This document shows positions 16,858 to 20,920 of a stretch of 64,000 nt of DNA, in pieces. The notes under the pieces are model-generated. The model did no database searches. It saw only the letters and a list, made by a program, of their open reading frames with translations, and was not told the DNA's origin. Every line of letters begins with the position of its first letter. Position 1 is the stretch's first letter. This DNA comes from Dehalococcoidia bacterium (lineage in GTDB: Bacteria > Chloroflexota > Dehalococcoidia > Lucifugimonadales > Lucifugimonadaceae): the NCBI GenBank assembly GCA_002728715.1, contig PBVQ01000001.1:12191-76190 (forward strand), read 5' to 3'. Both the position numbers and the translations under genes were made by a program.

Positions 16858-18081
16858 TTGAATAAAAATCAAACATTAAAATCTACCTTAATTACCTTAG
16901 CTTGGTCAGTTTACATCCCATCTTTTTTATTATCTGTAGCACAAGGTATGATAATACCAATACTACCTGGTTTTGCATCAGAAGAGATGGCCGCGACCAC
17001 ATTTATGATTGGACTAATTGTCTCAGCTAAAGCAATTGGTATGCTTATATTTGATATTCCTTCAGGCATTATTTTATCTAGATTCGGTATGAACAAAACT
17101 ATGATGCTAGGTGTAATTTTATTTGCATTATCTTCTCTTCTAGCCGCTACAGCTCAGAATACAACTTTTCTATTCTTTGCTCGAATAATTTCTGGAATAA
17201 GTTTTTCTTTATGGATGATATCAAGACATTCATTTATAGCCATAGCTGTTCCTATAGAAATTAGAGGAAGAGCTATTTCAATATTTGGTGGATTTGGAAG
17301 ATTTGCTACAATATTGGGCCCTTTTATAGGTGGAATTGTTGCTGAATTCATAGGTATTAGAGTACCTTTTGTCATACAAATATTTTTAGCAACAGTTACG
17401 TTTATCATTTTAATGATTAATTACCATAAATCTGAAAAATATAATAATGATATAAATAAACATCTTATATCGCAAAATAAAAATTTCTTATCTGGTTTTT
17501 CTACAGTATTTAAAAATAATTATAAAATTTTTGCAACTGCCGGATTTGTTGCATCTGTCCTTTCTTTTTTGAGAGCAGCAAGAGAGTTTATGATTCCTTT
17601 TTGGGGAGAGGAATTAAAATTATCAAAAGATATTATTGGATACATAGTTACTGCATCATTTGCTATTGACTCTTTATTATTTCCTTTAGTTGGATATGTA
17701 ATGGATAGGTGGGGAAGAAAGTTTACTGGTGTTCCGGCACTCATAATTTTATCGATAGCAATATTTCTAATTCCATTTACTTCAGATTTATATAGTCTAT
17801 TTTTGATAGGTATTTTAGCAGGAGCAGGTAACGGTCTATCAACTGCTTTTATACTAACTTTGGGAGCAGATTTATCCCCTGAAAAGAATAGGGGGGAATT
17901 TTTAGGTACATGGAGAATGTTTGCAGACACAGGGGCTTCTTCAGCTCCATTAGCTATTGGATATATGGGTCAAATTATTTCTCTATCTTTTGCATCAACA
18001 TTTACAGCTATATTTGGTTTTATCGGAACAATTATATTAATTTTTCTAGTCCGAGATACTAAAAATATCAACAAATACTAA
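16858..18081 (+). CDS. MFS transporter
   Basis: Multiple TM segments; DIPSGIILSRFGMNK and GYVMDRWGRKFTG motif A-like loops. Confidence 0.88.
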   Translation: MNKNQTLKSTLITLAWSVYIPSFLLSVAQGMIIPILPGFASEEMAATTFMIGLIVSAKAIGMLIFDIPSGIILSRFGMNKTMMLGVILFALSSLLAATAQNTTFLFFARIISGISFSLWMISRHSFIAIAVPIEIRGRAISIFGGFGRFATILGPFIGGIVAEFIGIRVPFVIQIFLATVTFIILMINYHKSEKYNNDINKHLISQNKNFLSGFSTVFKNNYKIFATAGFVASVLSFLRAAREFMIPFWGEELKLSKDIIGYIVTASFAIDSLLFPLVGYVMDRWGRKFTGVPALIILSIAIFLIPFTSDLYSLFLIGILAGAGNGLSTAFILTLGADLSPEKNRGEFLGTWRMFADTGASSAPLAIGYMGQIISLSFASTFTAIFGFIGTIILIFLVRDTKNINKY

Positions 18082-18920
18082 ATTATACTTAATAATTTTT
18101 TCAAGCATTTAGAGTCATCATTGAAAGATCTACCATCAATCCACTTTTTTGATTCTCCACTCATTCCATCCACTGCACCTGCTAAAACTATTTTACTTAA
18201 CCAATTATTAGTTTGATTTATACTTGGAAGTAATTTTTGATTTTTCATTATTGATAAAGATGTTATCAGGCCATAGGCTCCCCAATTAGATACGCTAGAT
18301 ATAATTAATTCTGTAGTTTTAGTAACTGCAGGTTTGTCGGGTAATCCATCAATATTTTTTATTTTTTCAAAAAAATTTCCCATACCAATTTCATTTCCTC
18401 CATCTCCAATGCCTATAGTTTTTTTATGGAAATTAAATAAGTAGTCAATTTTTGAGTTATATTTCGAAAAATCTAAACCTTTCCAGTTTCTATAAGTTCC
18501 ATCTTCTAAAATACCTGCTCTTTCTATAGATATCAAAAGGGATGGATTGTGCTGACTTAATAATTTTTTTGCAAAATTTGATGACTCTTGATGACCAAGA
18601 TTAGGAAACACTATAATCTCGTTTTCTGTGAACAATGGAATTAGGATATCATAACTATATTCATCAGTTATTATATATACCTCATTACCTAACTTCTTCA
18701 ATGCATCACTTAGTGCTTTTGCACCTAATGGACCATCAGTTTCACCTTTTTTTGATTTTAAGATATAAAATCCTGTAGTTATGAAAACCACCCCTTGGTT
18801 TTTCAAAACTAAATCTGATGAACTCCTAATCCAGTCTTTCTTCATGTAGCAACTTAATTTCGAAATAGAACGAGTATCTTCTGAAAGTATAATGTCTTGT
18901 ATGAGATTAAATTTATTCAA
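18078..18920 (-). CDS. DUF4392-type protein, C-terminal-half homologue of D-glutamate cyclase
   Basis: TGFYI, GTYRNWKGLDFSKYNSKIDYLF and TIGIGDGGNEIGMGNF are characteristic of the DUF4392/glutamate cyclase C-terminal domain. TTG start overlaps the upstream stop (TTGA). Confidence 0.78.
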   Translation of the reverse strand: MNKFNLIQDIILSEDTRSISKLSCYMKKDWIRSSSDLVLKNQGVVFITTGFYILKSKKGETDGPLGAKALSDALKKLGNEVYIITDEYSYDILIPLFTENEIIVFPNLGHQESSNFAKKLLSQHNPSLLISIERAGILEDGTYRNWKGLDFSKYNSKIDYLFNFHKKTIGIGDGGNEIGMGNFFEKIKNIDGLPDKPAVTKTTELIISSVSNWGAYGLITSLSIMKNQKLLPSINQTNNWLSKIVLAGAVDGMSGESKKWIDGRSFNDDSKCLKKLLSII

Positions 18921-19687
18921 TTTTTGTTTCTTGTACTCAAGTCAGTTATAAACATATGGCCGGGAGAATGAGTTATCATAAAATCGATATTTGATGTGAG
19001 GGCAATATTTTGTGGAGTCACCCCACATGCCCAAAATACAGGAACATAGCTTTTGTCATCATTTATCCATTGGTTACCATAATCTGGATTTTTAATATCT
19101 TTGATCCCAATTTTTTCTGGGTCACCTATATGAACTGGGGAACCATGAGAATTAGTATATTTAGATGAAATCTCTACAACCTCATCGATTCGACTTTCAT
19201 GAATCCATCGCAAAGTAACTACCATATTTCCAGCAAAATCCCCAGATGGAATTGTAGGAATATTTGTGTTGTACATAGGAACAGTTTTTGATGAATTATA
19301 ATATGGAAGATAAAAATTTGATTCAACTAATTCATGCTCAAAAGAAAAACTACAACCGAGCAAAAAAGTTACCAAGTTTTTATCCCAATAGGAATTAATT
19401 TGATTTATTTCTTCTCTTAATTTTCCATTTATATATACTCGATATTTAGGGACATCGAACCTAATATCAGAGTTAGGAGTAGTTATTTTAGCTTCAAAAT
19501 CTCCTGGATCTAAAACTTCAATTATTGGGCAGGGTTTACTGTTTCTTTGACAAAAGACTAAAAAATCATAGGCGTGTTTTTTATTTAAGATCACTACATT
19601 GGTTTGTACAAAATTTTTACACTCACCGGAGGTTTGACCGGTAAAAATGCCATTTCTTATGTTTTTTCTAAATAAAATTGAATCCAT
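18917..19687 (-). CDS. DUF1445 family protein (putative hydro-lyase / D-glutamate cyclase N-terminal-half homologue)
   Basis: RNGIFTGQTSGECKNFVQTNVVILNKKHAYDFLVFCQRNSKPCPIIEV and LLGCSFSFEHELVE match my memory of the DUF1445 family. Confidence 0.82.
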   Translation of the reverse strand: MDSILFRKNIRNGIFTGQTSGECKNFVQTNVVILNKKHAYDFLVFCQRNSKPCPIIEVLDPGDFEAKITTPNSDIRFDVPKYRVYINGKLREEINQINSYWDKNLVTFLLGCSFSFEHELVESNFYLPYYNSSKTVPMYNTNIPTIPSGDFAGNMVVTLRWIHESRIDEVVEISSKYTNSHGSPVHIGDPEKIGIKDIKNPDYGNQWINDDKSYVPVFWACGVTPQNIALTSNIDFMITHSPGHMFITDLSTRNKN

Positions 19688-19765
19688 AAGGTAACTTTCT
19701 ATTTTGAATTCTGTAATTATAAATTATACTATCAAAAAAGTAATTTTATTAATAGCGAGAAAAAA

Positions 19766-20920
19766 ATGAAGATAATTAAAGTAGAACAATTTGCTCCCAG
19801 GCAAAGAACTAGACTAATAAGAATCACGACTGACACCGGAATAGAAGGTTGGGCAGAAAGTACTTTGGAAGGTAAACCTCACTCAGTCCCGGCTGCTATT
19901 GATGAATTTGCTGAATATTTGATTGGTAAGGATCCTTTACGTATTGAGCATCACTGGCAACAAATGTATAGATCTTCTTTCTTTAGAGGAGGGGCTCACA
20001 ATATGTCAGCAATAGCAGGAATTAATGCCGCATTATGGGACATTGCTGGGAAGCATTATGGAGTTCCAAGTTATATGCTTATGGGAGGAAATGTCAGAGA
20101 TAAAATAAGAGTGTATGCACATTGGGGGATTAGAGACCTTACAGATGAGGGACTTAATGCTTCAAGAGAAAGATTAAATATGTTGCAAAAATCTGGATAC
20201 ACAGGATATAAGGCAGGACCTGCCGGAACCTGGAGAGCTCATGAACCACCTTCTAGAATTGATGAATTTGTAAAAGCAGCATATATGATGAGAGAATGGG
20301 TAGGGGATGATGTAGAATTATGCTTTGATTTTCATGGTAAAATGACCCCAGGTTTAGCAGTTGAAGTTTGTAATGAAATTAAGGGAATGAGACCAATGTT
20401 CGTTGAAGAACCCATCCCACAAGAAAACCCTGATGCACTAAAACGTATTCAAGAGCAAGTTAGTTTCCCTCTTGCGACAGGTGAAAGACTCTTAAGTCGG
20501 TGGGAATTCAGAGAAGTTATAGAAAAACAGGCAGTATCTCTGCTACAGCCTGATGTTGCCCATTGTGGAGGTCCTTCAGAATTAAAAAAAATCGCAAATT
20601 ATGCTGAAGTATATTATCAACACATTATGCCTCATTGCGCAATCGGACCACTAGCTCTTGCTGCATGTATGTTAGTAGACGCAGTTGTTCCTAACTTCCT
20701 AATACAAGAACAAGTTGATGAAGGGCTTGGAAATGAACTACTTAATTCACCGTGGATCGTAAAAGATGGGCACATTGACCTATGGACCACACCCGGACTA
20801 GGTGTTGATATAAATGAAGCAGAAGCAACAAAAACTTATGGCGGTGATGCTTATGGGTACCACAAAGAATTAGGTGGAGAATATTACTATGAAAATGATG
20901 GTTCGGTAGCTGATTGGTAG
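19766..20920 (+). CDS. Mandelate racemase/muconate lactonizing enzyme family (galactonate dehydratase-like)
   Basis: IAGINAALWDIAGKHYGVPSYMLMGG, LCFDFHGKMTP, MFVEEPIP, ATGERL and LQPDVAHCGG. Confidence 0.9.
   Translation: MKIIKVEQFAPRQRTRLIRITTDTGIEGWAESTLEGKPHSVPAAIDEFAEYLIGKDPLRIEHHWQQMYRSSFFRGGAHNMSAIAGINAALWDIAGKHYGVPSYMLMGGNVRDKIRVYAHWGIRDLTDEGLNASRERLNMLQKSGYTGYKAGPAGTWRAHEPPSRIDEFVKAAYMMREWVGDDVELCFDFHGKMTPGLAVEVCNEIKGMRPMFVEEPIPQENPDALKRIQEQVSFPLATGERLLSRWEFREVIEKQAVSLLQPDVAHCGGPSELKKIANYAEVYYQHIMPHCAIGPLALAACMLVDAVVPNFLIQEQVDEGLGNELLNSPWIVKDGHIDLWTTPGLGVDINEAEATKTYGGDAYGYHKELGGEYYYENDGSVADW

Follow-up and report, generated by a model that had tools for sequence, protein, structure and literature searches.

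A predicted two-gene operon of D-glutamate and 5-oxoproline metabolism in SAR202-like Chloroflexota

Here, we describe two neighboring genes of a marine Dehalococcoidia bacterium, found in a 64,000-nucleotide stretch of DNA (the whole stretch that was analysed, hereafter the window), which probably form an operon of D-glutamate/5-oxoproline metabolism and encode separate, intact enzymes of one pathway, a reading to which we assign a probability of roughly 70% on the basis of sequence comparison. The upstream gene encodes a DUF1445 protein of 256 residues (PF07286, ‘D-Glu_cyclase’; 18917..19687, minus strand, ATG start) and the downstream gene a DUF4392 protein of 280 residues (PF14336, ‘GLUCM-like_C’; 18078..18920, minus strand, TTG start). 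Directly established are the family membership of both proteins, an intact metal site, kept linkage, a pxpABC cluster in the same genome, and pxp/hyu operon links in relatives.

Profile searches against Pfam confirmed that the upstream gene belongs to DUF1445 and the downstream gene to DUF4392, as an initial annotation of the region had proposed. The upstream protein matches PF07286 over model positions 1–143 of 143 (E = 6.1e-56, 188.7 bits against a cut-off of 25) and the NCBIfam equivalog NF003969, ‘putative hydro-lyase’ (344 bits, cut-off 324), and the closest solved structures in a PDB sequence search are UPF0317 Atu3911 (3DB9, E = 9e-71) and 2PIF (E = 6e-65). The DUF1445 family is that of UPF0317 and Bacillus subtilis YcsI, and ycsI sits in the B. 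subtilis pxp operon. The downstream protein matches PF14336 (formerly DUF4392) over positions 14–290 of 291 (E = 1.8e-64, 218.4 bits against 27.9), and its closest solved structure is TON_0340 (4DWZ, E = 4e-25).

Conserved residues suggest that neither protein is degenerate. The DUF4392 metal ligands E60, D62, E133, D173, E177 and D262, which correspond to E59, D61, E115, D157, E161 and D246 of TON_0340, are invariant in 54 of 54 aligned sequences. Across 43–51 relatives, the DUF1445 residues T19, N30, N49, C53, D74, R76, D78, Y82, C112, H181, W219, C221, Q226 and H240 are invariant or nearly so; T19, N30, C53, D74, D78, C112, H181, C221, Q226 and H240 are conserved at 0.98–1.00 and all are present here. 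Because the six metal ligands of the one protein and a Cys/His/Asp/Thr set of the other are invariant, both look like active enzymes as opposed to an enzyme and a scaffold. AlphaFold monomer models of the two proteins, built from 3–4 close sequences, were of poor quality, with pLDDT values of 31 and 46.

The two reading frames overlap by the four nucleotides TTGA (AAAAATTGAATAAA; 18917..18920, minus strand), in which the upstream gene ends with TGA and the downstream gene begins with TTG, so both the overlap and the gene order of the animal fusion are as the initial annotation described them. The TTG start is credible because a relative (L033) has ATG at the equivalent place (AAAAAATGAAAAAA) and conserved residues already begin 5’ of the first internal methionine; no alternative standard start codon lies close by ahead of the conserved stretch. 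A TTGA or ATGA overlap was also found in loci L031–L035, and the arrangement is consistent with translational coupling of the two genes. A frameshift or sequencing artefact breaking a true fusion was considered and rejected, as several independent metagenome-assembled genomes (MAGs) from this genus keep the overlap and, between genera, the boundary of the two genes varies from a 4-nt overlap to hundreds of bases. In one relative (G052; L055, 8437–8470), the two genes, taken as longest open reading frames, lie in frame with a stop codon as their sole separator (GGACTAATTGCAG), and loss of that stop would fuse them.

Upstream of the pair, a consensus scan yielded a weak candidate promoter (TTAATA, 18-nt spacer, TATAAT; 19723..19752, minus strand), and the number of sites in this AT-rich region equals chance expectation. 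A divergently transcribed enolase-superfamily gene (19766–20920) lies 78 bp from the pair and exceeds the NCBIfam cut-off for galactonate dehydratase (381 bits, with 311 required). We rejected it as a functional partner: among the loci examined, only about a dozen have it close to the pair, which persists in its absence.

The host genome is a 1.35-Mb MAG, 84% complete, which appears SAR202-like judging from its nearest named relatives (‘Chloroflexi bacterium’ MAGs) and gene content. A contig search with a single protein matched three close Chloroflexi MAG loci, and a wider comparison found each family in 52 of 60 related genomes, the same 52 in both cases. The genes are same-strand neighbors with DUF1445 first in 49 of these, the exceptions being G047 and G057, in which they are unlinked, and G058, in which 2 kb separates them. 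Clustering of neighboring open reading frames showed the pair to be the sole unit common to nearly all loci, with every other neighbor family present in at most 14; the persistence of the pair amid changing flanks indicates that adjacency is not due to chance. Pairwise divergence of the two proteins is correlated (r = 0.72, a value reached in 0 of 2000 permutations), and shared ancestry adds to both this correlation and the linkage tally. G047 has four genes of the DUF1445 family and two of the DUF4392 family, with no neighboring pair among them, and G043 and G047 each show a striking paralogue expansion of Hydantoinase_B, with at least 20 matches per genome.

Beyond this order the association loosens. 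Among 251 evenly drawn genomes of the phylum, 30 carry PF14336, 27 of them together with PF07286, and 45 have PF07286 above its cut-off, 18 of these lacking PF14336. Gene order is reversed in another Chloroflexota class (L072–L076, with a 4-nt overlap in L074) and the pair is unlinked not only in G057 but also in G096, G122 and G144. Linkage in the fusion order was therefore not constant: outside the order-level sample it was found reversed, interrupted or broken. The DUF4392 copies in genomes without DUF1445 (G074, G132, G203) fall into a divergent group that scores poorly against the window protein, and from this one phylum it appears that a DUF4392 protein of the DGLUCY kind (the mitochondrial fusion of mammals) needs DUF1445, while DUF1445 does not depend on DUF4392. 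A divergent DUF4392 subfamily, likewise low in score, often in tandem and without linked DUF1445, was also seen at L077, L078, L082, L080, L089, L093 and L095. At L077 Pfam identifies an enolase-superfamily protein in its neighborhood, and permeases resembling those of ABC transporters are also found nearby; on annotated plasmids it is accompanied by an Asp/Glu racemase together with UbiD (L093) or by amino-acid ABC transporters (L095). This subfamily probably acts on a different substrate.

Operon context in several relatives places the pair beside 5-oxoprolinase. One gene run in G297 (L102) reads DUF1445-PxpA-PxpB-PxpC-DUF4392, a Pseudoalteromonas megaplasmid (L092) carries DUF1445-PxpA-DUF4392-D-amino acid aminotransferase-MFS-GntR regulator-dipeptidase, and G056 (L100) has DUF1445-DUF4392-HyuA-HyuB; a Levilactobacillus plasmid contains a pxp operon without DUF4392, ordered PxpB-PxpC-like-...-DUF1445-PxpA. 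Within the window no pxp gene lies near the pair, and the window genome encodes intact, consecutive pxpA, pxpB and pxpC genes (PF03746, PF02682 and PF02626) on contig C14 (L096, 8034–10546). Their NCBIfam matches exceed the cut-off for the PxpA subfamily and for PxpB; PxpC falls under its equivalog cut-off (202 against 500) and over that of the family-level model TIGR00724. PxpA was detected in 44 of the 52 genomes with the pair (47 total matches minus G025, G028 and G034, which lack it), and seven of the remaining eight have Hydantoinase_B; the eighth, G015, is 69% complete. As 5-oxoprolinase is common in any case and Hydantoinase_B is a broad family, this co-occurrence is moderate evidence.

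Two further observations concern the surroundings of the pxp genes. An NRAMP divalent-metal transporter gene (L094, 5076–6275) adjoins DUF1445-PxpA in Levilactobacillus and the B. subtilis pxp operon likewise contains ycsG, a Mn importer (PMC10448178), which suggests a link between Mn and the 5-oxoproline pathway. Directly 3’ of pxpABC in the window genome (L096, 10622–12639) are a small open reading frame, a gene for a biotin/lipoyl-domain protein and a large open reading frame that by eye resembles the beta subunit of a Na+-pumping decarboxylase; Pfam confirmed only the biotin/lipoyl domain.

To our knowledge, D-glutamate cyclase (EC 4.2.1.48) activity has been demonstrated only for the mouse full-length fusion. 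That protein converts D-glutamate to 5-oxo-D-proline, and its knockout accumulates D-glutamate (PMC5339696). Homology to the mouse enzyme together with the linkage to 5-oxoprolinase supports a role around D-glutamate and 5-oxoproline, and this element of the initial annotation fares well.

The source of the D-glutamate may lie outside the cell. In the 84% complete window genome (G000) we detected neither a glutamate racemase (PF01177, MurI) nor a penicillin-binding (PBP) transpeptidase, and PF01177 exceeded its cut-off in 0 of 37 genomes of the same family, G000 included. Given these two results, synthesis of D-glutamate for the cell wall is unlikely here, a judgement tempered by the incompleteness of the MAG, and the presence of the pair in nearly all genomes of a lineage where no glutamate racemase could be detected suggests that external D-glutamate is salvaged.

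The route that we propose would begin with exogenous D-glutamate, for example from peptidoglycan-derived organic matter. The DUF1445/DUF4392 pair would cyclise it to 5-oxoproline, which an ATP-dependent 5-oxoprolinase (here PxpABC, encoded away from the pair, and in some relatives an OPLAH-like HyuAB) would open to L-glutamate. Since DUF1445 travels alone with pxp genes, our guess is that it performs the core D-glutamate/5-oxoproline step and that the Mn-dependent DUF4392 protein performs an accessory or second step. We infer the substrate, the direction, the division of labour and the manner of D to L inversion, the last because descriptions of 5-oxoprolinase concern the L form. More tentatively, the pair and PxpABC may constitute a dedicated route from environmental D-glutamate to L-glutamate in SAR202-like Chloroflexota without detectable racemase, one half cyclising D-glutamate and the other inverting or processing 5-oxo-D-proline.

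Three other readings bear on how the two proteins work. In the initial annotation they were the subunits of one enzyme, and an obligate D-glutamate cyclase heteromer whose subunits share an active site or must be in contact, like the animal fusion, would account for the fusion-like order and near-contiguity across most of this order, the identical presence pattern among 60 relatives, the DUF1445 gene in 27 of 30 DUF4392 genomes of the phylum sample and the correlated divergence. We nonetheless consider it doubtful and favor pathway partners around D-glutamate, 5-oxoproline and 5-oxoprolinase: reversed order (L072–L076), pxpABC (L102) or pxpA (Pseudoalteromonas) inserted between the genes, and independent occurrence, with unlinked genes in four genomes and DUF1445 alone in 18 of 45, argue against an obligate heteromer. 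TON_0340, moreover, behaves as a homodimer, and DUF1445 is reported absent from archaea (PMC5132392).

That same protein motivates the reading of DUF4392 as a Mn-dependent small-molecule phosphatase merely co-regulated with the DUF1445 enzyme. TON_0340 has weak Mn-dependent phosphatase activity (kcat/KM of 190 per M per s on AMP) that is abolished in D157L and E59Q (PMC5132392); these ligands do not vary in the window DUF4392 family, and the phosphatase activity counts against the D-glutamate/5-oxoproline operon. However, the activity is very low and has no known physiological substrate, the mouse fusion produces 5-oxo-D-proline (PMC5339696), and the gene context is one of amino-acid and 5-oxoproline metabolism, leaving this the least probable of the three and very unlikely. 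Also unlikely, to a lesser degree, is that the pair runs mainly in reverse or in damage control, disposing of spontaneous 5-oxo-D-proline or repairing 5-oxoproline rather than scavenging D-glutamate. DUF1445 does lie within pxp operons, and glutamine or glutamate spontaneously yields 5-oxoproline (PMC10448178), but in the Pseudoalteromonas operon the presence of an MFS transporter, a dipeptidase and a D-amino acid aminotransferase looks like import and catabolism, and the mouse enzyme was shown to work from D-glutamate towards 5-oxo-D-proline (PMC5339696).

If the favored pathway reading is correct, it would provide a concrete enzymatic route for D-glutamate use by abundant deep-ocean bacteria, one in keeping with the reported increase in uptake of D-amino acids at greater depth (discussed in PMC6946804). 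The separate bacterial genes also make the role of each half of the animal D-glutamate cyclase directly testable, and should one half cyclise and the other invert or process the product, the animal fusion would catalyse two steps instead of acting as a single cyclase.

Mammalian mitochondrial DGLUCY (C14orf159; mouse 9030617O03Rik) combines the same two families, with DUF1445 likewise preceding DUF4392 (PMC5339696, PMC5132392), whereas in the window two separate genes would encode the predicted activity, with neither a linker nor mitochondrial targeting. The fusion was described by Sohn 2016 and occurs in animals, from fish onward (PMC5132392). Every linked pair in the prokaryotic genomes that we examined consists of two genes; the ‘split’ of the initial annotation probably has the polarity backwards, and free-standing genes are likely ancestral. 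TON_0340 (Thermococcus onnurineus; PDB 4DWZ/4FC5/5GL4) is a homologue of the downstream protein that shares its six acidic metal ligands but, going by the published taxon list (PMC5132392), lacks the DUF1445 partner that the window protein has. UPF0317/YcsI ‘putative hydro-lyase’ proteins (3DB9, 2PIF) are full-length homologues of the upstream protein and are often found without DUF4392 beside pxp genes, whereas the window copy accompanies DUF4392, with pxpABC at another site of the genome. For human D-glutamate cyclase (GLUCM_HUMAN), Rendina, Turnbaugh and Bradley 2024 list 0 full-length and 6 split gut-genome homologues (PMC11580864), so that the arrangement in the window is already on record; their entries for this enzyme cover gut taxa only and seem to come without functional or operon analysis of it. 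Both the fusion and the separate genes were known already; what the present analysis adds is the near-universality of the pair in SAR202-like genomes where MurI is not detectable, and its links to Pxp and Hyu operons.
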